Positions 4,753 through 47,312 of a DNA stretch of 48,344 bases are shown here, one piece after another. How positions within the stretch are numbered: position 1 is the first letter of the stretch; the number at the start of each line of letters is the position of its first letter. Source of the DNA: a virus; IMG/VR virus record IMGVR_UViG_3300031521_001847, positions 1-48,344 of that record. One strand, 5' to 3'. The notes under the pieces were generated by a model. It was given only the letters and a program-made list of their open reading frames with translations, made no database searches and was not told the DNA's origin. The position numbers were made by a program, and so were the translations under genes.

Positions 4753-6150
4753 TTATTTTAATAGTTTTCTTAAATCACTTTTTTCATCATTTGCATTACC
4801 ATAATTTATACTTAATTCTCGTCTCATAAGTGTAATTTCTTGTTCAACACCACCACTTCTTTTATATAAATAATTTATACCTGTAACAAACCAATACCCA
4901 GATAATTTTGGATTTATGTTATCAAGTGGTTTTTTGATATTTGCGTTACTTGAAAGTAAATCATTTTGATTATATATTTCAACTTTAATGTTCTGAAATC
5001 TTTTTACAGAAAAATTTACTTGATTTAATATGACAATCATTTTCATTTTTTCCATACCATTTAGATGAAATTGATTGGCAACTTTTGCTAATGAATAATT
5101 TTGATGTACATTATTATCCGTGTCAATTTTACCTGTAAAATATTCATCATTTACACATTCTTCATATAGTTTTGAACTTCTATCCGTTAAATCTTTTAAT
5201 TCTTCATGTTCTGTTCCAAGTTCTTTTATAAATTCTTTATAAACAGTATTATTACTTTTATCATACCATGTAGATGTAACTTGATAAAATCTTTCTAAGT
5301 TGACTTTGTATGATTGATTAACTAAATTAAATTTGCTTATGTAATTATTTGTCATATGAAAAGCACTATTATTAGTTAAATATAACTCACTGTTTTTTTC
5401 TTCATCATTTTTAATTATCTGAGAATTTGTAATGGTTCCACTTTCTCCTTTAATAAATTCATTCATTTCTAATTGAATATTTATATAATTTATATTATAT
5501 TGAAAATCAATAAAGGTCCATACAAACGCATCTTTTGATATGAAAGAATATTTTGTTATATCTTTAATAAATTCAGGATATGTATCACTACAATTTATCC
5601 ATGACATACTATCATTACTTGATTGTACATTTGATGCAAATCCAAGATTTAAATCAAATGCTATTCCTTTTATTACATCATAACTTGTTCCTTTTCTAGA
5701 TTCATATTTTGTATAAAATAATTCATCTAAATCTAATATTCCTTTAATTAAATATTTTAAATTATTACTATTAATATCACCTTTTACTGTTTCATAAGAT
5801 GTAACTCTAAAATCCATTCTTATTGGCATTGTGTTTTCTGAATTTGATTTAACAAAAATGCTTAATATCATGTCATGATCAGATGGATAAGAATCATTAA
5901 ACAATATTCCTTTTGAATCATCACAATATAATTCAATTTCAGGTAAAAACTTACTATTGTGAAGTTTTACATATATAACATCTTTTGCATCAATTGTGGT
6001 TCCGTTAAAATTTGGGTCATTAACTTTGCTAATAAATAAATATGGAACATAATTAAATGATTGCACAAGAATATCCGCTGATATAGGATCATTTACTTTT
6101 ATATTTAATTCTTTAAGTTTTACACTAGCTTTATTTAAAATTTTTATCAT
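4753..6150 (-). CDS. gp27/gpD-like baseplate hub protein
   Basis: A 465-residue structural protein. Its C-terminal part (GYWFVTGINYLY, then EQEITLMRRELS) has the pattern seen in late-control D/gp27-type hub proteins, which form the ring that couples the tail tube to the gp5 spike. The N-terminal 130 residues are beta-rich. It overlaps the stop of the upstream LysM-like gene by 4 bases and lies two genes before the gp5-like protein, which fits the gp27-gp5 partnership. The assignment relies on C-terminal pattern plus context, so it is moderate. Confidence 0.6.
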   Translation of the reverse strand: MIKILNKASVKLKELNIKVNDPISADILVQSFNYVPYLFISKVNDPNFNGTTIDAKDVIYVKLHNSKFLPEIELYCDDSKGILFNDSYPSDHDMILSIFVKSNSENTMPIRMDFRVTSYETVKGDINSNNLKYLIKGILDLDELFYTKYESRKGTSYDVIKGIAFDLNLGFASNVQSSNDSMSWINCSDTYPEFIKDITKYSFISKDAFVWTFIDFQYNINYINIQLEMNEFIKGESGTITNSQIIKNDEEKNSELYLTNNSAFHMTNNYISKFNLVNQSYKVNLERFYQVTSTWYDKSNNTVYKEFIKELGTEHEELKDLTDRSSKLYEECVNDEYFTGKIDTDNNVHQNYSLAKVANQFHLNGMEKMKMIVILNQVNFSVKRFQNIKVEIYNQNDLLSSNANIKKPLDNINPKLSGYWFVTGINYLYKRSGGVEQEITLMRRELSINYGNANDEKSDLRKLLK

Positions 6151-6654: not shown

Positions 6655-8457
6655 TTATTTTGTATTTCCTGTTCCTGATTTTTGATTGGAAACAGGAATA
6701 CCAGGTTTAGGTGGATTTTGTTGTATATTATCTGAATTTTTAGCATTTTTGACAGACGTAGAATTTGATGCTTCTGTACCAGGAGGCGGTGAATTATAAG
6801 TCCTTCTATATGTGTTATTGAACATTCTCATCAATTCTTGCTTACCTAAAGCTCTTGAAAATTTACAATTGAAAGTAGCAGTTAATCTTTGTGGTTGATC
6901 ATTAAATCCCATTTCGTTGCTTGTTTCTACTGATGCTGAATGTACAATAATATGATTTGTAGCTAACCATGGTGCGTATGGATTTCCTAATGATAAATAC
7001 CAAGGTGTTGAACTCATTTTACCACCAACCATTAATTCAATAGACCCTCGTAATTCAAACCTCCATATAGATACTGTACTTGTTAGAACAGATTGCAAAA
7101 ATGGTGCAAGATAGTTAGCAGCATCAGCAAGTTTCTTTTTAGCAGCATCTGTTACAGATTGTTCTTTTGTTGAGATATCATCTTTTTTAAGTTTAGCTAA
7201 TTCTGTTTGTAAAGTTTTTAATTTTGGTTGATCTGGTGTTTTTTTAGTATTTTCTATATCTATTTGGTTTTGTAAATCTTGTTCTTTATCTGTTCTAGGT
7301 TTATTTGCATCCTCTTTACTTTTGTTGGTGTCAATTGTGTCATTATAGTTTTTTTCCAATTTTGTAAATTCATCTTTAAAAAAATCTGCTATTACTGTCC
7401 AAAAAGATTCTAATGTTAAAGATATCATATCCCACCACGCATTTAAATTATTGGCTTTATAACTGCTAGCTTCCCTGGCTTTTTTCATAACAGCTGAATT
7501 ATCACCCCAATAAAATTTCATATTAGATGTGCCCATTGCATAAATATTATCTAAAATATCTAGCATTGCTGAACCTGGATCAACATCTCCTAATAATTTT
7601 TGTTCATATGTTGTTTCTAATATAAATTCAAAGGTTGATGTTATATTTTGTCCTGCCGGATCTCTAAATGGCCCTTCTTGTAATACATTAGGATCCCCAA
7701 TAGGTATATTATTAAGGCCCCAACTATTAGTTGTAGTTGGACCTTTACCGTTAGTTACATCGGTGTAAGATGTTGGTTGTTTTATAGTGCTAGGATCAAA
7801 ATTTTCATAAGCTTCATCTGTTGTCTCATTTGTACTATCACTATTTAAAAGTCCGGCATTTTTGTAAAGTTGAAATAACATACCTTGCGCAAAATCAGGA
7901 ACTGGTATTATTGGTAATAATCCACCTGTTGCAGTTTCTATCATTTTAGATATCATTTGATCAAATCTTTTAGATGTGGTTGCCCAATTTTCATGAAATT
8001 CAACTTTACCAAAATTGTCACTTGGTTTAATCCAGCCAACAATAGTTGAGATTGGTTCTCTAATCATTTCATTTAGGTCTTCTGGAACAAAGCAACCTTC
8101 TGGAAATCTTCTAAGAATAGCCATTCTATTTATAGGATAAACACCTAATTCTCTTAAATATGCTAAATCTGCAGCTTTTATTCTTAACCCGGCTCCAGGT
8201 TGACCATCAACACTATCAAAATCCATTACTAATTGTACATAAGGATTTATAGATTTGTCTTCATTTTTATATACTTTATCTTTTATATATTTTTTGATAT
8301 TAGTTGTACCAGCACCAGAATTATTTTTATTTTTATATACAACATATTTTGATTCATCAAATATATTAGCAGAATTATTTCTATTGCTTGTTTGAAGATT
8401 TATATAATCTTTAGTAATATTATTAAAAAGAAAATCTATTTCAGAATAATGTGACAT
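6655..8457 (-). CDS. Large baseplate/tail-associated structural protein
   Basis: A 600-residue protein. A Lys/Asp/Thr-rich, probably coiled-coil segment lies at roughly 360-430, inside an otherwise globular protein. The C-terminal third (PWYLSLGNPYAPW, then SNEMGFNDQPQRLTATFNC) looks like a tail-tube cap or baseplate protein that contacts the tube. The last 40 residues are Pro/Asn/Ser-rich. It is the second gene of the minus-strand baseplate operon, and a TATATATAAA motif sits 18 bases upstream of its start. The specific role (gp48/gp54-like cap) is a guess from the operon position. Confidence 0.6.
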   Translation of the reverse strand: MSHYSEIDFLFNNITKDYINLQTSNRNNSANIFDESKYVVYKNKNNSGAGTTNIKKYIKDKVYKNEDKSINPYVQLVMDFDSVDGQPGAGLRIKAADLAYLRELGVYPINRMAILRRFPEGCFVPEDLNEMIREPISTIVGWIKPSDNFGKVEFHENWATTSKRFDQMISKMIETATGGLLPIIPVPDFAQGMLFQLYKNAGLLNSDSTNETTDEAYENFDPSTIKQPTSYTDVTNGKGPTTTNSWGLNNIPIGDPNVLQEGPFRDPAGQNITSTFEFILETTYEQKLLGDVDPGSAMLDILDNIYAMGTSNMKFYWGDNSAVMKKAREASSYKANNLNAWWDMISLTLESFWTVIADFFKDEFTKLEKNYNDTIDTNKSKEDANKPRTDKEQDLQNQIDIENTKKTPDQPKLKTLQTELAKLKKDDISTKEQSVTDAAKKKLADAANYLAPFLQSVLTSTVSIWRFELRGSIELMVGGKMSSTPWYLSLGNPYAPWLATNHIIVHSASVETSNEMGFNDQPQRLTATFNCKFSRALGKQELMRMFNNTYRRTYNSPPPGTEASNSTSVKNAKNSDNIQQNPPKPGIPVSNQKSGTGNTK

Positions 8458-12396: not shown

Positions 12397-14937
12397 ATGA
12401 GTTTTTTTAAAAGAGATGAAGCGTATGATGCATCATTAAAATATTTTAACGGTGATACATTAGCTGCTGATGTTTGGGTTAATAAGTATGCATTAAAAGA
12501 TACAAAAGAAGGTGAAACTGTATATTATGAAAGAACACCAGATGATATGCATTGGAGACTTGCAAAAGAAATACATAGAATAGAAGATAAATATGAAAAT
12601 CCATTATCAGAACAGTTTATATTTGATTTGATAAAAGATTTTAAGTATATAATTCCACAAGGCTCACCAATGTCAGGAATTGGTAATAATAGACAAGTTG
12701 TATCATTATCAAATTGTTTTGTTATAGGTAGTTTATTTGATTCATATGGATCAATTATGCAAGTTGATGAAGAACAGATACAACTTATGAAACGTAGAGG
12801 TGGTGTAGGACACGATCTTTCTCATATTAGACCAGCTGGAATGCCAGTCAAAAATTCTGCATTAACTTCTACAGGCTTGGTTCCATTTATGAATAGATAT
12901 TCAAATTCTACAAATGAAGTTGCCCAAGGTGGAAGAAGAGGTGCATTAATGTTGACTTGCTCCGTAAAACATCCAGATTCAGAAGATTTTATTGATGCTA
13001 AATTAGAACACGGTAAAGTGACCGGCGCAAATATATCAGTTAAAGTTCATGATGATTTTATGGAAGCTGCATTAAATGCAAAAATGTATACCCAATTATT
13101 TCCAATAGATTCTAAAAATCCTATTTTCACAAAAGATATTGATGCTCAAAAGTTATGGAAAAAAATAATTCATAACGCTTGGAAATCTGCTGAACCAGGT
13201 GTTTTATTTTGGGATACTGTTATGAGGGAGTCTGTTCCAGATTGCTATCAAGATTATGGTTTTAAGACAGTTAGTACAAATCCGTGCGGTGAAATAACTT
13301 TATGCCCTTATGATTCATGTAGATTACTTGCAATTAATCTTTATAGTTTTGTTGTAGATCCATTTACAAAACATGCATCTTTTGATTGGAATAAATTTAA
13401 AGAATATGTAATTTATGCTGAAAGATTTATGGATGATATTATTGATCTTGAAATTGAAAAGATTGATATGATTTTGAGTAAAATTGAATCAGATCCTGAA
13501 AATGATGAGACTAAGAGAGTTGAAAGAGAAACTTGGATTAAAATTATGACAATGACTTTAAATGGTCGTAGAACTGGTTTAGGAGTAACTGCTGAAGGTG
13601 ATATGCTAGCGGCGTTAGGTTTAAGATATGGCACATCAGAAGCAACTGAGTTTTCAACTGAAGTACATAAAATTTTGGCTATAAATGCTTATAAATCATC
13701 TGCTATAATGGCAAAAGAAAGAGGTTCTTTTCCTATTTATGATTATGAAAGAGAAATAAGTAATCCTTTTGTTCAGAGATTAAAAGATTCTGATCCAGAA
13801 TTAGATATAATGTTAAAACAATGGGGTAGAAGAAATATTGCTCTTTTAACTATTGCACCAACTGGTTCAGTTTCAATTATGACACAAACTACTTCTGGTA
13901 TTGAGCCAGCATATTTAGTTTCTTATAAAAGAAGACGGAAAATAAACCCAACAGATAAAAGTGGTAGAGTTGATTATACAGATGCTGAAGGTGTAAAATG
14001 GGAAGAATATAATGTTTTTCATCATAAATTTGAAATTTGGTTAGATGTTAATGGTTATAATATTGAAGAAGTTAAAGCTATGAAAGATTCTGATCTTAAA
14101 TTAATAATAGAAAAATCACCATATTATAAGGCAACTTCTAATGATGTAGATTGGGTTGAAAAAGTTAGAATGCAAGGAAGAATTCAAAAATGGGTAGATC
14201 ATTCTATTTCAGTAACAGTTAATTTGCCAAATAATGTTACTGAAGATATTGTATCTAAAGTGTACGAAATGGGATGGAAGTCTGGATGTAAAGGAATGAC
14301 TGTCTATCGTGATGGCTCTCGTCAAGGTGTTATTATGTCTAATGAAGGTACTACACAAAATGTAGTAAAAGAACCTCAAGAAAATAATGCTAAGCCAAGA
14401 CCTAAAAGGCTTGAGTGTGATGTTGTTAGATTTACTAATAATAAAGAAAAATGGGTTGGTGTTTTAGGATTAATGGTTGATGAAAAAGGTCAAAAATATC
14501 CATACGAAATATTTACAGGTCTATTAGATGAATTTTATATTCCAGCTTCTGTAGAAAAAGGTGAAATTATTAGATATAAAGAAGAAGGTGAAAAAAGTAG
14601 ATATGACTTTGTTTATAAAGATAAAGATGGATATCATGTTACAATGGAGGGTTTAAATAGAGCATTTGATAGAGAATTTTGGAATACAAGCAAATTATTA
14701 TCAGCTTTTTTAAGACATCGTATTCACCTTCCTAGTGTTATTGATCTTATAGATAGTTTGCAATTATCAGATAATGCAGCATTTGGAACTTGGAAGTCTG
14801 GTGTTAAAAGAATTATAAAGAAATATATAAATTCTAAAATTATTGGCGAATCATGTCCTGAATGTGGTTCAAAAGATTTAACATATGAGGCTGGGTGCAA
14901 AACTTGCCGAAATTGCGGGTGGAGCAAATGTGAATGA
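12397..14937 (+). CDS. nrdJ: Adenosylcobalamin-dependent (class II) ribonucleotide reductase
   Basis: Makes deoxyribonucleotides for phage replication. Class II marks are visible over 846 residues: Cys107 in SLSNCFV, the NPCGEI active site (Asn295, Cys297, Glu299) with a second cysteine, Cys308, 11 residues later as in class II enzymes, APTGSVSIM, YRDGSRQGV, and a C-terminal zinc-ribbon-like tail (CPECG, CKTCRNCGWSKC). No R2 subunit or NrdD glycyl-radical motif is needed or seen. Activity would rely on host vitamin B12 uptake or synthesis and would work with or without oxygen. It is the last replication gene before the heptosyltransferase-like gene. Confidence 0.92.
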   Translation: MSFFKRDEAYDASLKYFNGDTLAADVWVNKYALKDTKEGETVYYERTPDDMHWRLAKEIHRIEDKYENPLSEQFIFDLIKDFKYIIPQGSPMSGIGNNRQVVSLSNCFVIGSLFDSYGSIMQVDEEQIQLMKRRGGVGHDLSHIRPAGMPVKNSALTSTGLVPFMNRYSNSTNEVAQGGRRGALMLTCSVKHPDSEDFIDAKLEHGKVTGANISVKVHDDFMEAALNAKMYTQLFPIDSKNPIFTKDIDAQKLWKKIIHNAWKSAEPGVLFWDTVMRESVPDCYQDYGFKTVSTNPCGEITLCPYDSCRLLAINLYSFVVDPFTKHASFDWNKFKEYVIYAERFMDDIIDLEIEKIDMILSKIESDPENDETKRVERETWIKIMTMTLNGRRTGLGVTAEGDMLAALGLRYGTSEATEFSTEVHKILAINAYKSSAIMAKERGSFPIYDYEREISNPFVQRLKDSDPELDIMLKQWGRRNIALLTIAPTGSVSIMTQTTSGIEPAYLVSYKRRRKINPTDKSGRVDYTDAEGVKWEEYNVFHHKFEIWLDVNGYNIEEVKAMKDSDLKLIIEKSPYYKATSNDVDWVEKVRMQGRIQKWVDHSISVTVNLPNNVTEDIVSKVYEMGWKSGCKGMTVYRDGSRQGVIMSNEGTTQNVVKEPQENNAKPRPKRLECDVVRFTNNKEKWVGVLGLMVDEKGQKYPYEIFTGLLDEFYIPASVEKGEIIRYKEEGEKSRYDFVYKDKDGYHVTMEGLNRAFDREFWNTSKLLSAFLRHRIHLPSVIDLIDSLQLSDNAAFGTWKSGVKRIIKKYINSKIIGESCPECGSKDLTYEAGCKTCRNCGWSKCE

Positions 14938-42306: not shown

Positions 42307-42403
42307 TAAACTTTTTAAGTTATTCATTATATACTAAAAACAGAAAAAAACGACTTTTTTTAATAAATATATAAAATATATTTTTTTATTCGGAAAAAGT
42401 CTT

Positions 42404-42411
42404 TATCTTTG
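42404..42411 (+). promoter_or_regulatory. Host-type promoter -7 element (TATCTTTG) for the tRNA operon
   Basis: TATCTTTG matches TAnnTTTG and lies 48 bases before the Thr-rich leader ORF and 225 bases before the first tRNA. The -33 area is T-rich. It implies transcription of the tRNA array by unmodified host polymerase. Confidence 0.65.
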
Positions 42412-42459
42412 TAGAGAAATTAAGAAATAATAAAACAAAATAAGAAATAAATAGAAATA

Positions 42460-42561
42460 ATGAAAAATTTTAGGACAAATACAGCGACAGTGGCAACGAC
42501 AACTGCTCCCGTAGGAGGCAGACCAGTCAGACTACGCTCGGATGTATTATACCTAATCTAA
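42460..42561 (+). CDS. Thr-rich leader peptide of the tRNA operon attenuator
   Basis: A 33-codon ORF with six Thr codons between positions 6 and 15 (RTNTATVATTTAP) and a C-terminal RPVRLRSDVLYLI. Its GC content is far above the surrounding DNA. The stop codon (42559-42561) lies in the left arm of a hairpin (42554-42574). The codons for Leu-Arg-Ser-Asp contain CTCGGAT (42537-42543), which can pair with the 5' arm of the terminator at 42585-42620. This is the layout of amino-acid biosynthesis leader peptides. Stalling at Thr codons would leave CTCGGAT free. The peptide itself probably has no other function. Confidence 0.75.
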   Translation: MKNFRTNTATVATTTAPVGGRPVRLRSDVLYLI

Positions 42562-42596
42562 ATAATATAGATTAACTAGAATATAAAAAATCCGAG
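42537..42596 (+). promoter_or_regulatory. Antiterminator pairing of the attenuator
   Basis: CTCGGAT (42537-42543) is fully complementary to ATCCGAG (42590-42596), which is the 5' arm of the terminator. Between them a 7-bp hairpin, TAATCTA/TAGATTA (42554-42560 with 42568-42574), brings the two together. Formation of this structure excludes the terminator. Confidence 0.7.
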
Positions 42597-42620
42597 AGTT
42601 TCAAAATTTTCGGATTTTTT
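42585..42620 (+). terminator. Attenuator terminator before the tRNA array
   Basis: 11-bp stem (A6-TCCGA with TCGGA-T6) and a T tract, located between the leader ORF stop and tRNA-Pro at 42637. Its position inside the transcript, upstream of all tRNAs, makes it conditional rather than final. Confidence 0.85.
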
Positions 42621-42636
42621 TGTTTAATAAAAAAAA

Positions 42637-42709
42637 CGGGTATGAGGTGTAACTTGGTTGCATCCAAAATTTGGGATTTTGGGGAGACGTTCAAATCGTA
42701 CATACCCGA
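42637..42709 (+). tRNA. tRNA-Pro (UGG)
   Basis: CGGGTAT/ATACCCG acceptor, D arm with TTGG, anticodon stem CAAAA/TTTTG with loop TTTGGGA (anticodon TGG), and T loop TTCAAAT. The T stem is weak (three pairs). CCA is not encoded. Confidence 0.85.
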
Positions 42710-42726
42710 CGAGTAGGAGACTGTTA

Positions 42727-42765
42727 GAATTTCATAGTACCGATAGAGAGGAAGCGTAGAAATTC
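42727..42765 (+). repeat. Inverted repeat between tRNAs
   Basis: GAATTTC (42727-42733) pairs with GAAATTC (42759-42765) around a 25-base purine-rich loop. It lies in the spacer between tRNA-Pro and the next tRNA-like gene; possibly a processing signal or a degraded tRNA. Confidence 0.35.
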
Positions 42766-42771
42766 ATTTAT

Positions 42772-42846
42772 CTGGGTGTATTGCAGATGGTTATACTACG
42801 GTGTTCTGGAAACATCGGTCCGTGGGTTCGAATCCCACCACTCAGA
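42772..42846 (+). tRNA. tRNA-like gene, anticodon uncertain (UGG by position; CUG also in loop)
   Basis: Acceptor CTGGGTG/CACTCAG (one G-U), T arm GTGGG-TTCGAAT-CCCAC and D loop with GATGGTT are clear. The anticodon arm GGTGT-TCTGGAA-ACATC places TGG at 34-36 but with C at 33. A 9-base loop with stem CGGTG/CATCG is the alternative. Identity Pro or Gln cannot be settled by eye. Confidence 0.6.
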
Positions 42847-42940
42847 CAGCAGCATATTAGACAGTTGAATATGTGTATCGAAACTGTGAAAAGTTTTAGT
42901 TAATCGACTGCGACAGGTGTGGATAGACACACATTATATT

Positions 42941-43019
42941 GGTCCTGTAATGGCTACGCCTTCTAAGCGAGATGTGCATAACGGAAATGAAAATGAGGGT
43001 TCGAATCCCTTCTGGATCA
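42941..43019 (+). tRNA. tRNA-Arg (UCU)-like, D arm missing and long variable region
   Basis: Acceptor GGTCCTG/CTGGATC (T-T mismatch at pair 6), T arm GAGGG-TTCGAAT-CCCTT, anticodon arm TACGC-CTTCTAA-GCGAG (anticodon TCT). Only seven bases (TAATGGC) occupy the D region, and 23 bases lie between anticodon and T arms. The same architecture recurs at 46156-46234. Confidence 0.65.
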
Positions 43020-43083: not shown

Positions 43084-43159
43084 GGGGGCGCATGTTCCAA
43101 GGCTAAGGCGATGAACACTTGCAATGTTCGTGAGGGGATTTCGATTATCCTCGTCTCCA
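43084..43159 (+). tRNA. tRNA-Ala (UGC)
   Basis: Acceptor GGGGGCG/CGTCTCC, anticodon arm GAACA-CTTGCAA-TGTTC (TGC), T arm GGGAT-TTCGATT-ATCCT. Regular cloverleaf apart from a weak D stem. Confidence 0.85.
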
Positions 43160-43222
43160 CAGGGTTCATAAAATAAACTTTCCACATTTTTATTACTATA
43201 TAATTAAAAATAAGTATTATAA

Positions 43223-44125
43223 ATGAAAAAGTGTAAAAACGATGAGTGTGAAAATTTAATAGATGATAAAAGAGTGTATTGTTCTCTGAAATGTAGAAAT
43301 ATATATGTTAATAAAAATTTAAGAGATTATAGTAAGGTTAAAGAAATTTTTAAAAATAAAAGTGTTTTGGCTGAAAAAGAATATTTGAAAAATCCTAATA
43401 TCTGTAAATTTTGTGGTGAAATAATATCCTTTGAAAAAAGATTGTTAAATTCGGACTTTTGTGATCATTCTTGTTCAGCAAAATTTAATAACAAATTAAG
43501 AAAGGGTATAAAGCATAATTTAAGTGAAGATGGAAGAAAAAGTTTAATAGAATCTGCTTATAAAAATTTATTAAATTCGGAAAAAATTAAATACGTTAAA
43601 GAAAAGGAATTATATTATGAAAATTCTAAATTATGTTTTAATTGTGATTCGGTATTAGAATTTAGATATAGAAATAGAATTTTTTGTAATATAAAATGTA
43701 AAAACGAATATCATTCTAAAAATAAAACAGAGTTTGAGTTATATTATGTGTTATCAAAATTTAAATTCAATTTGAAAGATTTTAATACTGAATTTGATTT
43801 TACATTGATTGAAAAATTTGGCTGGTATAAGGCTAAAAATAATGGTGATAATGTTGATGGTGTGAGTCGAGATCATATGTTGTCAGTAAAAGGAGGATTT
43901 CGAAAATTAATAAATCCATTATTACTTGCACATCCAGCAAATTGTGAATTGATTGTGAATAAGAAAAATCAAAGTAAATCTGATGATTGTTCATTGACAA
44001 TTGAAGAATTGTTAGAAAAAATAGAAATATTTGAAGATAAATATGGAAAATATTATGAAAAAGATATTAAAACATATATAGATTTGGAAGAATTAAAAGA
44101 AATTTATATGGGTTGTGTAGTGTAA
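43223..44125 (+). CDS. HNH endonuclease with multiple Cys zinc fingers, 3' end inside a tRNA gene
   Basis: A 300-residue protein. Three zinc-knuckle-like Cys pairs (CKNDECENLI, CKFCGEII, CFNCDSVL with partners such as CSLKCRN and CNIKCKN) precede an HNH core: DGVSRDHMLSVKGGF and HPANCELIVNKKNQSK. It is a homing-type endonuclease placed between two tRNA-Ala(UGC) genes. The last five codons and the stop lie inside the second tRNA-Ala (from 44110). Codon use is as AT-rich as in the phage core. Confidence 0.75.
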   Translation: MKKCKNDECENLIDDKRVYCSLKCRNIYVNKNLRDYSKVKEIFKNKSVLAEKEYLKNPNICKFCGEIISFEKRLLNSDFCDHSCSAKFNNKLRKGIKHNLSEDGRKSLIESAYKNLLNSEKIKYVKEKELYYENSKLCFNCDSVLEFRYRNRIFCNIKCKNEYHSKNKTEFELYYVLSKFKFNLKDFNTEFDFTLIEKFGWYKAKNNGDNVDGVSRDHMLSVKGGFRKLINPLLLAHPANCELIVNKKNQSKSDDCSLTIEELLEKIEIFEDKYGKYYEKDIKTYIDLEELKEIYMGCVV

Positions 44126-44183
44126 CCTGCTTAGCACGAAACACTTGCAATGTTTAAGAGGAGTCGAAATCTCACACGATCCA
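44110..44183 (+). tRNA. tRNA-Ala (UGC), second copy
   Basis: Acceptor GGGTTGT/ACGATCC, D stem GTG/CAC, anticodon arm AAACA-CTTGCAA-TGTTT (TGC), T loop TCGAAAT with a reduced T stem. Its first 16 bases are also the end of the upstream HNH ORF. Confidence 0.75.
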
Positions 44184-44249: not shown

Positions 44250-44323
44250 GCAATTGTAATTCAGTAGGTAGAATGCATCTGTGGTATAGATGATGTCGTG
44301 GGTTCGAATCCCACCGTGTTGCT
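44250..44323 (+). tRNA. tRNA-His or tRNA-Thr (loop reads GGU by position, GUG offset by one)
   Basis: D arm ATTC/GAAT and T arm GTGGG-TTCGAAT-CCCAC are regular. The anticodon stem CATCT/AGATG leaves loop GTGGTAT, which gives GGT (Thr). However, the GTCGTGGG variable/T junction and an extra G(-1):C73-type pair at the acceptor are tRNA-His hallmarks, and GTG is present one step away. The acceptor stem is imperfect. Confidence 0.6.
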
Positions 44324-44330
44324 CTGATAA

Positions 44331-44387
44331 AGAATACTAACAGCAAATTAAAAAAACTTCTATGGAAAAGAAAAAAAATAGTATTCT
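44331..44387 (+). repeat. Inverted repeat in tRNA spacer
   Basis: AGAATACTA (44331-44339) and TAGTATTCT (44379-44387) form a perfect 9-bp stem around a 39-base A-rich loop. No gene lies here. Confidence 0.4.
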
Positions 44388-44409
44388 GTTCTTAAAAAAT
44401 AAATCTTGA

Positions 44410-44475
44410 AGATTACATACAGCAATTCAAAAAAGAAACAAACTTGTAAATTGTAAATTCTAAAAAATGTAATCT
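44410..44475 (+). repeat. Nested inverted repeat in tRNA spacer
   Basis: AGATTACAT (44410-44418) pairs with ATGTAATCT (44467-44475); inside, CAATT pairs with AATTG. It ends 13 bases before tRNA-Gly and could be a small structured RNA or processing element. Confidence 0.4.
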
Positions 44476-44488
44476 GTGATTTAATAAT

Positions 44489-44562
44489 GCGAATGTAGCT
44501 CAATTGGTTAGAGTGCCACCTTGCCAAGGTGGAAGTTGTGGGTTCAAGTCCCATTATTCGCT
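44489..44562 (+). tRNA. tRNA-Gly (GCC)
   Basis: Acceptor GCGAATG/TATTCGC, D arm with TTGGTTA, anticodon arm CCACC-TTGCCAA-GGTGG (GCC), T arm GTGGG-TTCAAGT-CCCAT. A fully regular tRNA. Confidence 0.9.
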
Positions 44563-44577
44563 CAGTATTAAGTATTT

Positions 44578-44662
44578 GCGATAGTCTCCTAGCGGTCGAT
44601 GGTACCTGCCCTCCAAGCAGGTTAGTGAAAACGCGTCGTGGGTTCGACTCCCACCTATCGCT
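44578..44662 (+). tRNA. Class II (Ser-like) tRNA carrying a UCC (Gly) anticodon
   Basis: Perfect acceptor GCGATAG/CTATCGC and T arm GTGGG-TTCGACT-CCCAC. A 16-base variable arm can form GTG-AAAA-CGC, and the D arm CC-TAGCGGTCGAT-GG resembles tRNA-Ser. The anticodon arm CCTGC-CCTCCAA-GCAGG gives TCC at 34-36 with C at 33. Body and anticodon therefore point to different amino acids. Confidence 0.7.
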
Positions 44663-44670
44663 CTTTTAAT

Positions 44671-44746
44671 GCCCTTATCGCTTAGTTGGTTTTAAAGCGT
44701 ATGGTTTACATCCATAAGATCCAAGGTTCGACTCCTTGTGGGGGCA
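44671..44746 (+). tRNA. tRNA-Val (UAC)
   Basis: Acceptor GCCCTTA/TGGGGGC, D arm GCTT-AGTTGGTTTTA-AAGC, anticodon arm TATGG-TTTACAT-CCATA (TAC), T arm CAAGG-TTCGACT-CCTTG. Confidence 0.88.
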
Positions 44747-44749
44747 CAT

Positions 44750-44824
44750 GCACTTATCGCTTAGTTGGTTCAAAGCGTCTGTCCAACACACAGAAGATCC
44801 AGGGTTCGACTCCCTGTAAGTGTA
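44750..44824 (+). tRNA. tRNA-Val-like (AAC by position, C33)
   Basis: It lies 3 bases after tRNA-Val(UAC) and shares its D region (TATCGCTTAGTTGGTT), so the two are likely duplicates. Acceptor GCACTTA/TAAGTGT. Anticodon arm TCTGT-CCAACAC-ACAGA puts AAC at 34-36 but C at 33. Confidence 0.7.
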
Positions 44825-44878
44825 CAATTGAATAATAAACCTATCAAGTTTATTGTACAAGATTAAGTTTAATATTTT

Positions 44879-44951
44879 GGCTCTTAAGCATTTAGTGGAT
44901 GATGTCTGCCGTTGTATCGCAGGGAAATCGGATCGTTACCGAAATGAGCCT
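44879..44951 (+). tRNA. tRNA-Thr (UGU)-like, irregular
   Basis: Acceptor GGCTCTT/ATGAGCC (one T-T mismatch), D stem GCAT/ATGT, anticodon loop GTTGTAT (TGT) closed by a C-C mismatch above CTGC/GCAG, and an unusual T loop ATCGTTA. Either a diverged tRNA-Thr or a decaying copy. Confidence 0.55.
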
Positions 44952-44964
44952 CAATTAATTTTTT

Positions 44965-45035
44965 GCTTCTGTAATTCAACGTAGAATACCGAATTCGTAA
45001 CTCGGAGAATGTAGGTTCGAGACCTATCAGAAGCT
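44965..45035 (+). tRNA. tRNA-Thr (CGU)
   Basis: Perfect acceptor GCTTCTG/CAGAAGC, D stem ATTC/GAAT with a 6-base loop lacking the usual GG, anticodon arm CCGAA-TTCGTAA-CTCGG (CGT, one mismatch), T arm GTAGG-TTCGAGA-CCTAT. Confidence 0.75.
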
Positions 45036-45068
45036 CAAACTTTTTAATTAAAGTATTATATATAAAGT

Positions 45069-45563
45069 ATGAATAAGAGATGGAATAAAGAAAATTTAGA
45101 AAATATAATAAAAAATTCGGCAACAAAAATAGAGGTTATTAATAAATTAGAATTAACACATCAAGGCGCAAATTATAGAACTATATTAAAATACGCTAAT
45201 TTATTTGAAATAGATATTGCACATCTTAATATTAATAAAGATAAGAAGATGGATAATTTTAATAAAAAATGTTTATTAGAAATATTGGTTGAGAATTCTA
45301 CTTTTGGGACAACATATTTGAAAGAAAGATTATATAATGAAGGAATTAAAGAAAGAAAATGTGAATTGTGTGGTCAAGATGAAAATTGGCAAGGTAAAAA
45401 AATGAGTTTAATATTAGATCATATAAATGGTGTTCATGATGATCATAGATTAGATAATTTAAGAATAGTGTGTCCTAATTGTAATGCAACATTAGACACG
45501 CATTGTAAAGGAAATAGAATTATTGCACCCATAGCTTTAATTGGTAGAGTGCCTGACTTGTAA
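45069..45563 (+). CDS. HNH endonuclease, stop codon inside tRNA-Thr
   Basis: A 164-residue protein. The N-terminal 60 residues look like a helix-turn-helix DNA reader (ENLENIIKNSATKIEVINKL). The C-terminal HNH/zinc domain is classic: CELCGQDENWQGKKMSLILD, then HINGVHDDHRLDNLRIVC and PNCNATLDTHC. The last 13 codons, counting the stop, are the first half of tRNA-Thr(UGU) (45525-45598), and the TAA is in the anticodon arm. TATATAAAG sits right before the ATG. Confidence 0.8.
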   Translation: MNKRWNKENLENIIKNSATKIEVINKLELTHQGANYRTILKYANLFEIDIAHLNINKDKKMDNFNKKCLLEILVENSTFGTTYLKERLYNEGIKERKCELCGQDENWQGKKMSLILDHINGVHDDHRLDNLRIVCPNCNATLDTHCKGNRIIAPIALIGRVPDL

Positions 45564-45598
45564 TCAGGATGTTGGCGGTTCGAGTCCGTCTGGGTGCT
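45525..45598 (+). tRNA. tRNA-Thr (UGU)
   Basis: Acceptor GCACCCA/TGGGTGC, D arm with TTGGTA, anticodon arm CCTGA-CTTGTAA-TCAGG (TGT), T arm GGCGG-TTCGAGT-CCGTC. Regular. Its 5' 39 bases also encode the end of the HNH ORF. Confidence 0.88.
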
Positions 45599-45603
45599 CA
45601 TAA

Positions 45604-45677
45604 GGTCTTGTAGCTCAATTGGATAGAGCAACAGATTTCTAATCTGTAGGTTATGAGTTCGAGTCTCATCAGGATCA
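45604..45677 (+). tRNA. tRNA-Arg (UCU)
   Basis: Acceptor GGTCTTG/CAGGATC, D arm GCTC-AATTGGATA-GAGC, anticodon arm ACAGA-TTTCTAA-TCTGT (TCT), T arm ATGAG-TTCGAGT-CTCAT. A regular tRNA, in contrast to the D-armless Arg-like genes. Confidence 0.9.
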
Positions 45678-45693
45678 CTAACTTACAATATCA

Positions 45694-45954
45694 ATGAATC
45701 AGTACATTTATAAGAATAAAATAAACGGGAAATATATAAAAACTATAGATGTTTATGATATGAATTTAGGGTATTCTAATCCACATCATTATGAAATTTA
45801 TGATATTGAAGATGCCGACCAATATAATTTCAATACAGGGTGGCTTTTTGATAGTGATAAGAATATCCTTTATGAACGAGTTTGTTATCAAGATGAAAAA
45901 AAATTAATAAGAAAGAAAAAATTAGCACAAATATTGCAGAAGAAGCTCATTTAG
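45694..45954 (+). CDS. Small hypothetical protein, stop codon inside tRNA-Gly
   Basis: An 86-residue protein rich in Tyr, Lys and Asp (MNQYIYKNKINGKYIKTIDV), not recognised. It fills the gap between tRNA-Arg and tRNA-Gly, and its last six codons plus TAG lie in the first 19 bases of tRNA-Gly(UCC). It may be a reduced mobile ORF or a cargo gene in the tRNA array. Confidence 0.5.
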   Translation: MNQYIYKNKINGKYIKTIDVYDMNLGYSNPHHYEIYDIEDADQYNFNTGWLFDSDKNILYERVCYQDEKKLIRKKKLAQILQKKLI

Positions 45955-46009
45955 GTCGAGTAGGAGATTTCCAATCTTCAGGCAGCGGGTTCGAATCCCG
46001 TCTTCTGCT
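45936..46009 (+). tRNA. tRNA-Gly (UCC)
   Basis: Perfect acceptor GCAGAAG/CTTCTGC, D stem GCTC/GAGT, anticodon arm GGAGA-TTTCCAA-TCTTC (TCC, normal T33), T arm GCGGG-TTCGAAT-CCCGT. The 5' end overlaps the upstream ORF. Confidence 0.88.
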
Positions 46010-46018
46010 CAAAAAAAA

Positions 46019-46094
46019 TGGATAGATTACATTTTAAGTTAGTGACCGGGTTAAAGGATCTCATTTCGGTATTTTACAAGTCCGAAGTCCATTT
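46019..46094 (+). other. Possible degenerate tRNA or structured RNA
   Basis: ATGGAT and GTCCAT can close the element, and TTCGG pairs with CCGAA where a T arm would be, but the T loop has 12 bases and no standard anticodon arm is seen (a TTAA lies in a weak loop). It could be a decayed tRNA-Leu. Confidence 0.3.
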
Positions 46095-46123
46095 TTTTTA
46101 CAATATATGCACGGATAGGGAAC

Positions 46124-46150
46124 GCACGGCTGGCGAGCCGCCCGCCGTGC
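46124..46150 (+). repeat. GC-rich hairpin
   Basis: GCACGGC (46124-46130) pairs with GCCGTGC (46144-46150), and the interior can add GGC/GCC around GA. The stretch 46109-46160 is mostly G and C in a genome region near one quarter GC. It lies just upstream of the second D-armless tRNA and has no T tract. Confidence 0.55.
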
Positions 46151-46155
46151 ACCAC

Positions 46156-46234
46156 GCACCTGTAATGGCGGAGTTTCCTAAACTCTATGTGCATAACGGA
46201 ATGAAAAATGTGGGTTCGAATCCCATCTGGTGCC
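46156..46234 (+). tRNA. tRNA-Arg (CCU)-like, D arm missing and long variable region
   Basis: Acceptor GCACCTG/CTGGTGC (T-T mismatch at pair 6), D region reduced to TAATGGC, anticodon arm GGAGT-TTCCTAA-ACTCT (CCT), 23-base variable region starting ATGTGCATAACGG, T arm GTGGG-TTCGAAT-CCCAT. It is a paralogue of 42941-43019 with a different anticodon. Confidence 0.65.
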
Positions 46235-46260
46235 CTTTTCTAAATCTTAGATATTATTTT

Positions 46261-47211
46261 TTATTTTAATAAATTTTTAATGTATTCAATATTTATTTTT
46301 TTTAAATCTGTATATGGCACTCTGATCATTTTTATATTGTTTTCGCCACAATAATTATTTTTAAATTTGTCTATTTTTTGTTGTCTTTCAAGCCTTTTAA
46401 TACCTCCCCATCTTTTTACTGCTTTAAAATGCTGAAGACCATCATATTCTATAATAGTTTTTACATTATTGTACTCATCATATAACACAAAATCAAAAGA
46501 TGGTGTACCATTATCTTCAGTTTTTAATCCATTAATAATATGTTGATCATTATAATTTATTTTTAATTTTTTTAATATATCTGATATTAATAATTCACCT
46601 TTTGATAAATTGCATTTTGGGCAACCTCTTCTTAATAATTCTCTTGCAGTATTACTTGTCCATAAATTACCGCAAACATTACATTTAACATTCATTTTAC
46701 TATTACAGGTTTTATATTCTCCTAATATAGATATTCTATCATTGTGTATTTTATTTATTTCATTTAAAAATTTTTCAGGTGATTTTCTTATTTTTACACC
46801 TGTATTTTTACATCTACATTTATAGCAACCTGCTGTTCCTGCTATTAAGTTTTTTGCATATGGTTTCCATATATGATCACAAATGTTACATTGAGATTCT
46901 ATTCTAGTTATAGCATTAATATATTTTCCAATGATATTTATATTATCTCCGTATTTTTTATACACTTTTTTTTTAAAATCTTCAGTAGTTAGATTATATT
47001 TAATGGTTTCTTTTGCTTTTTTCTTTCCACACTCAGGACAGCCACTATCACCATTTATTACATATTTTGCGGTAGTTGTCCATTCATGGTTACAAATTAA
47101 GCATTTAAATTTACTTTTATTATATGTGCCTAAAAAATCACTTAGGAATATAATATTAGAATTATTTAATAATATTCTTTCTTTTGCTTGATCAGTTGTT
47201 ATTTTTTTCAT
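46261..47211 (-). CDS. EDxHD (VSR-like) homing endonuclease with zinc-finger repeats
   Basis: The frame is open from 47259, but the ATG at 47211 (MKKITTDQAKERILL) fits the repeat start better and gives 316 residues. Three zinc-ribbon repeats follow (CLICNHEWTTTAKYV, CNICDHIWKPYAKNL, CNVCGNLWTSNTAREL). The C-terminal nuclease has SFDFVLYDE and IIEYDGLQHFKAVKRWGG. It is related to the enzyme at 35675-36583 but with different fingers. It lies next to the tRNA array, pointing towards it. Confidence 0.82.
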   Translation of the reverse strand: MKKITTDQAKERILLNNSNIIFLSDFLGTYNKSKFKCLICNHEWTTTAKYVINGDSGCPECGKKKAKETIKYNLTTEDFKKKVYKKYGDNINIIGKYINAITRIESQCNICDHIWKPYAKNLIAGTAGCYKCRCKNTGVKIRKSPEKFLNEINKIHNDRISILGEYKTCNSKMNVKCNVCGNLWTSNTARELLRRGCPKCNLSKGELLISDILKKLKINYNDQHIINGLKTEDNGTPSFDFVLYDEYNNVKTIIEYDGLQHFKAVKRWGGIKRLERQQKIDKFKNNYCGENNIKMIRVPYTDLKKINIEYIKNLLK

Positions 47212-47312
47212 AATGTTTTTTATTCTATATATAAATAATAAAAAATCATTTTCTATCATTATCTTATAATCACCTATATATTTATGATTTTAATATTAAA
47301 TATATATACGTT

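Follow-up and report, generated by a model that had tools for sequence, protein, structure and literature searches.

Predicted ribosome-mediated attenuation of multi-isotype tRNA operons in huge Bacteroidota-type phages

On sequence grounds, the region upstream of the tRNA array in the stretch of viral DNA analysed here (48,344 nucleotides, hereafter the window) is very probably a ribosome-mediated transcription attenuator of a multi-isotype phage tRNA operon, and would represent a class of such elements in huge Bacteroidota-type phages. Classical attenuators, such as the trp, his, thr and ilv leaders, combine a leader ORF carrying regulatory codons, an intrinsic terminator and a mutually exclusive antiterminator. 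The phage units share this arrangement, with all elements placed before the first gene. Unlike the classical systems, they precede tRNA genes rather than biosynthesis genes, they occur as many parallel units per phage genome, their antiterminator strand (region 2) forms part of the leader ORF, and a single leader would sense up to about nine isotypes.

The window is a 48-kb fragment of a huge-phage genome, encoding a UvsX-like recombinase, a ribonucleotide reductase and a tail sheath. As the initial annotation had proposed, a −7 box of the TAnnTTTG type (TATCTTTG) is present, followed by a 33-codon ORF with six Thr codons (positions 6, 8, 10, 13, 14 and 15), and an intrinsic terminator (hairpin at 42585-42620, −15.0 kcal/mol, then a T tract) precedes the first tRNA candidate at 42637 (see the table). 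The longer sequence TTTATNTTTGTA, which contains TATCTTTG, has a single exact occurrence in the whole window (42402-42413). Given the location of the TAnnTTTG consensus at −12 to −5 (PMC9723704), transcription would be expected to start near 42416. Since flavobacteria have TAnnTTTG as their sigma-A box (PMC9723704), a Bacteroidota host is likely for this phage; a search for the host among genome contigs returned two distant, uninformative matches.

Features of the attenuator region and tRNA array in the window
Feature	Position	Strand	Evidence
TATCTTTG, Bacteroidota sigma-A −7 box	42404-42411	+	TAnnTTTG match
Leader ORF MKNFRTNTATVATTTAPVGGRPVRLRSDVLYLI, 33 codons	42460-42561	+	
Region 2, antiterminator strand CTCGGAT, inside ORF (codons RSD)	42537-42543	+	covariation, folding
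Region 3, terminator 5' arm; ATCCGAG (42590-42596) is complementary to both region 2 and region 4	42585-42600	+	
Region 4, terminator 3' arm and T tract	42605-42622	+	
tRNA-Pro(TGG) candidate, heading the operon	42637-42710	+	relaxed ARAGORN
tRNA-Pro(TGG)	42772-42847	+	
Weak tRNA candidate, probably Arg(TCT)	42941-43019	+	RF00005, 24.9 bits, below cut-off; anticodon by eye
tRNA-Ala(TGC) candidate	43084-43160	+	relaxed ARAGORN
HNH-family endonuclease gene within the array	43223-44125	+	phrog_1271, phrog_23051
tRNA candidate, Ala by eye	44111-44182	+	RF00005, 32 bits
tRNA-Thr(GGT) candidate	44250-44324	+	relaxed ARAGORN, Rfam
tRNA-Gly(GCC) and tRNA-Gly(TCC)	44489-44663	+	
tRNA-Val(TAC) and tRNA-Val(AAC)	44671-44825	+	
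tRNA-Thr(TGT) candidate and tRNA-Thr(CGT)	44879-45036	+	
tRNA-Thr(TGT) and tRNA-Arg(TCT)	45525-45678	+	
tRNA-Gly(TCC) and tRNA-Arg(CCT) candidate, array end	45936-46235	+	

From codon 6 onward, the leader is composed almost entirely of Thr, Ala, Val, Pro, Gly and Arg codons, which are putative regulatory codons; its body, TNTATVATTTAPVGGRPVR, contains only P, A, T, G, V and R, plus one Asn. The array comprises 16 tRNA genes or candidates of six isotypes, P, A, T, G, V and R (relaxed ARAGORN and Rfam), in the order Pro, Pro, Arg?, Ala, Ala?, Thr, Gly, Gly, Val, Val, Thr, Thr, Thr, Arg, Gly, Arg. Relaxed ARAGORN gives four tRNA-Thr genes or candidates (44250, 44879, 44965 and 45525) rather than the three counted previously. 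There is strong support for the earlier proposal that an attenuator governs a phage tRNA operon, the layout recurring in about 60 operons with covarying terminator and antiterminator strands, but the designation "threonine-type" proved too narrow, as the leader has codons for all six isotypes of the operon. A sensor of Thr only, perhaps acquired from a host thr operon and with the other leader residues incidental, would account for the cluster of six Thr codons at positions 6-15 and would resemble the leader-peptide attenuation of amino-acid biosynthesis operons in Flavobacterium (PMC9723704). We consider it very unlikely: the Ala, Val, Pro, Gly and Arg codons match the operon equally well, sister leaders lacking Thr runs match other isotype sets, and Rfam scans matched no leader family, the enterobacterial threonine operon leader model being among those without a match in the window.

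As required of an attenuator, leader codons correspond to the tRNAs of the controlled operon, and this holds beyond the window. A composition-blind rule (hairpin of −11 kcal/mol or lower with a T tract, tRNA within 240 nt, and the longest ATG ORF of 12-50 codons whose end lies 8-50 nt upstream of the hairpin) yielded 63 leader-terminator-tRNA units from LR756501, LR756504, LR745206, LR756502, the Lak phages and IMG/VR contigs, about 6 of which probably have the wrong ORF chosen or are not units. The share of leader residues that match an isotype of their own operon was 0.454 across the 63 units, compared with 0.221 (sd 0.0146) for permuted operons (0/100,000 permutations). It was 0.404 versus 0.198 (sd 0.019) in 28 units with dissimilar isotype sets (0/100,000), 0.430 versus 0.198 with strict (default) ARAGORN calls, and 0.423 versus 0.247 (sd 0.022) when operons were permuted within single genomes (0/50,000). 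All 20 amino acids are commoner, by 2.0- to 16.9-fold, in leaders whose operon has the cognate tRNA; every operon isotype is present in the leader in 56/63 units, and 778 of the 857 matched codons can be decoded by a tRNA of the operon. In the same loci, a leader ORF is found at 60/64 strong terminators located just 5' of tRNAs versus 30/151 elsewhere, and these 30 control ORFs include some genuine leaders that escaped the strict tRNA list. A GC-rich stem in an AT-rich genome could in principle impose Ala, Gly, Pro, Arg, Thr and Val codons, and the window leader, taken alone, would agree with this. However, the Asn/Ile/Met, Lys, Phe/His/Trp/Lys, Tyr/Glu and Gln operons have leaders of AT-rich codons that match them, and the permutations across and within genomes, together with the per-residue enrichment, refute an origin by chance or composition, to which we attach next to no probability.

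The records nearest to the window are LR756501 (735 kb), LR756504, LR745206, LR756502, LR756500 and the Prevotella Lak phages. In LR756501, a leader containing ..FTPAPAVAFRRGTGTGTGTCVPAG.. and a terminator lie ahead of an Arg, Pro, Ala, Thr, Val and Gly tRNA array. Sister-operon leaders fit other sets, such as Gln, Lys, Ser/Arg, His/Phe/Trp/Lys/Ser, Tyr/Glu and Pro/Asp/Gln, among others. Among further units, MTTSFQQQQQQQINRTD precedes four tRNA-Gln, MKTINNTSKSSSRSSSMSE precedes Arg and Ser tRNAs, ..YESYYEE.. precedes Tyr and Glu tRNAs, ..HKHFSKLNKWF.. precedes Phe, His, Trp and Lys tRNAs, and MRNNINIENRNYCDYRNINININDCEDIM precedes Glu, Tyr, Asp, Asn, Cys, Met and Ile tRNAs. LR756504 has a Gln/Tyr/Asp leader ahead of Asp, Tyr and Gln tRNAs and a Gln/Tyr/Lys leader ahead of Tyr, Tyr and Gln tRNAs. 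The arrays of L157 and L158 hold Gln and Cys and their leaders carry Q and C; that of L156 holds Tyr and Glu and its leader carries Y and E. Each of the two Lak leader regions has a match in every one of the 15 Lak records, and at the first locus, which was fully read in five genomes (A1, B1, B2, B7 and C1), MKTLNMTYGMHPVCGMVHMFPCGGGRPMS or a near copy lies 5' of His, Pro, Arg, Gly, Cys and Met tRNAs. LR745206 and LR756502 possess seven units each, covering 19 and all 20 isotypes, respectively. By contrast, LR756508, with 26 tRNA matches, yielded no unit under the composition-blind rule; therefore, not every huge phage uses leader control. A second tail-sheath scan added 23 contigs nearly devoid of tRNAs, and tblastn with the leader peptide gave no match across the phage collection.

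LR756504 also carries a lysine operon (L007 8606-10207) consisting of a Lys-Lys-Lys-Lys leader, a terminator, three tRNA-Lys genes, a synthetase-like ORF and a fourth tRNA-Lys. The ORF resembles lysyl-tRNA synthetase (LysRS) by eye, which suggests that synthetases can share leader control.

The RNA of the window leader is a putative switch. It folds better than all of 200 dinucleotide shuffles (z −4.7), and, as originally noticed, CTCGGAT (42537-42543) can pair over its whole length with ATCCGAG (42590-42596). Stepwise folding supports the two exclusive structures deduced from this complementarity: region 3 is paired with 42537-42543 in a transcript reaching 42600, and with 42609-42615 in one extended to 42625, thereby exchanging region 2 for region 4. 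Across the units, the region 2:3 duplex has a mean energy of −12.0 kcal/mol, as opposed to −7.36 (sd 0.27) kcal/mol for permuted arms (0/20,000). In the full-length window leader, the terminator (−25.2 kcal/mol) is more stable than the antiterminator (−20.0 kcal/mol); therefore, antitermination has to operate kinetically, as it does in classical attenuation.

Orthologues of the window leader ORF are present in L138, L147, L151, L155, L142 and L148. The region 2/region 3 sequences of the window-leader orthologues include CTCGGAT/ATCCGAG, CTCAGGT/ACCTGAG, CTCGGGT/ACCCGAG, ATCGG/CCGAT and TTTGGGT/ACCCAAA. In 7 orthologues, 46/49 of the region 2:3 pairs are standard, with double changes at 4/7 positions, and 49/49 of the region 3:4 pairs are kept. 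Loss of the complementary segments or of the Thr codons in relatives that keep the tRNAs had been put forward as an observation that would refute attenuation; the opposite was found, the complementary segments being kept with compensatory changes and the codons being kept as well. The hairpin containing the stop codon, also described in the initial annotation, is present in the window but is not retained in the orthologues. Since the peptide encoded by region 2 varies among orthologues (RSD, RSG, PSE, YLG) while the pairing is kept, selection acts on the RNA pairing.

Across the units, region 2 begins within the ORF, at a median distance of 29 nt upstream of the last base of the stop codon. 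The cognate codons lie immediately upstream of it, at a median gap of 5.5 nt, and their density is 0.61 upstream of region 2 versus 0.25 downstream. A possible 1:2 protector (anti-antiterminator) helix, in which the codon region pairs with region 2, scored 0.62 versus 0.53 with shuffled upstream sequence (Wilcoxon p 8e-5) and is not dominant in the window. The earlier suggestion that CTCGGAT would be covered by a ribosome standing at the stop codon is questionable on this point, as the segment belongs to the ORF itself and ends about 15 nt short of the stop codon. This placement of region 2, together with the folding of 2:3 first in the window RNA even without a ribosome, could favor an opposite or different logic, in which translation rather than stalling blocks termination or the leader peptide acts in cis or in trans. 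We regard such a scheme as unlikely, since a region 2 peptide free to vary argues against it, and so does the concentration of cognate codons 5' of region 2, as required for stalling.

We favor instead a model in which the ribosome would translate a leader made of codons read by the downstream tRNAs. When any encoded charged tRNA is scarce, the ribosome would stall before region 2, which would then be free to pair with the terminator's 5' arm, so that transcription would continue into the tRNA genes. With ample charged tRNA, it would pass through region 2 and the terminator would form. Newly made phage tRNAs would relieve the stall, resulting in negative feedback with OR logic across the isotype set, and each tRNA group would have its own on-demand, self-limiting circuit. 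The trigger may be a depletion of tRNAs in the course of infection, perhaps caused by anticodon nucleases of the host. At even chances, we propose that huge phages split essentially their entire tRNA repertoire into isotype-resolved regulons, each leader being an OR-sensor that would replace tRNAs lost to the host or to anticodon nuclease. T-box riboswitches, which bind tRNA directly, also sense tRNA charging and control tRNA-related genes, and would likewise connect uncharged tRNA with tRNA or synthetase operons. They need no leader translation, whereas in the phage units the information sits in ORF codons, many per leader, and Rfam scans gave no T-box match (E up to 1 and 0.5); we deem this possibility scarcely credible.

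Attenuation itself is already known, including in flavobacteria. In Flavobacterium psychrophilum, short leader peptides are reported to attenuate amino-acid biosynthesis operons (PMC9723704); these share with the phage units the −7 promoter box, the type of host phylum and the short leader peptides, and differ in being biosynthesis rather than tRNA operons. These same huge and Lak phages and their tRNA arrays have been described as an inventory only (PMC7162821, PMC6784885), and "attenuat" and "leader" are absent from the text of both papers. Among open-licence papers, we found no earlier report of phage tRNA-operon attenuators, multi-isotype leaders or phage tRNA T-boxes. Such control would extend attenuation from amino-acid synthesis to tRNA supply, with a single leader responding to many amino acids simultaneously. 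The reason for the presence of tRNAs in phages is a long-standing matter of debate, between codon compensation and the replacement of tRNAs cut by host defences (PMC10264068). If the operons are switched on when their own isotypes run short, every leader would be a readable and testable record of the tRNA shortages that the phage meets, and together the leaders could serve as ready-made, codon-specific sensors of tRNA charging in Bacteroidota.

Other elements accompany the arrays. HNH-type endonuclease genes lie inside or beside the window array (43223-44125, 45069-45563 and, on the minus strand, 46261-47259), and their homologues occupy the LR756501 and LR756504 arrays. The pattern AAAAAANNGACTTTTTT as a phage promoter was not above chance within the window alone. 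GAAAAAA.TGACTTTTTT, followed by a ATATATAA-like stretch, recurs 5' of array promoters (window 42338-42375; L006 ~12650 and ~7600, minus strand) and is possibly a phage-specific promoter, although in the window by itself it does not exceed chance. A repeated element of 51-69 nt within the tRNA arrays, GA(A/T)TAC..ACAGCAA...GTA(A/T)TCTGT, forms a closed stem in which ACAGCAA and CTGT are conserved; some copies have an inner AAACTTGTAA-type segment. It is found in the window (44332-44389 and 44411-44477, plus strand) and, in strand coordinates, in L018- (6725-6781, 7326-7394), L151- (5616-5666, 5686-5753), L147 (5792-5852), L157 (2595-2653) and L015- (13551-13610). Its pattern gave 17 matches versus 3 in reversed sequence, and it scores 27-37 bits against Dicty_Class_I_RNA, under the family cut-off; it may be an undescribed small RNA. 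A second inter-tRNA element, CTGTTAGAATTTCATA...GAAATTCA, occurs at 42717-42766 of the window and in LR756501 (L006 10793-10740, minus strand).
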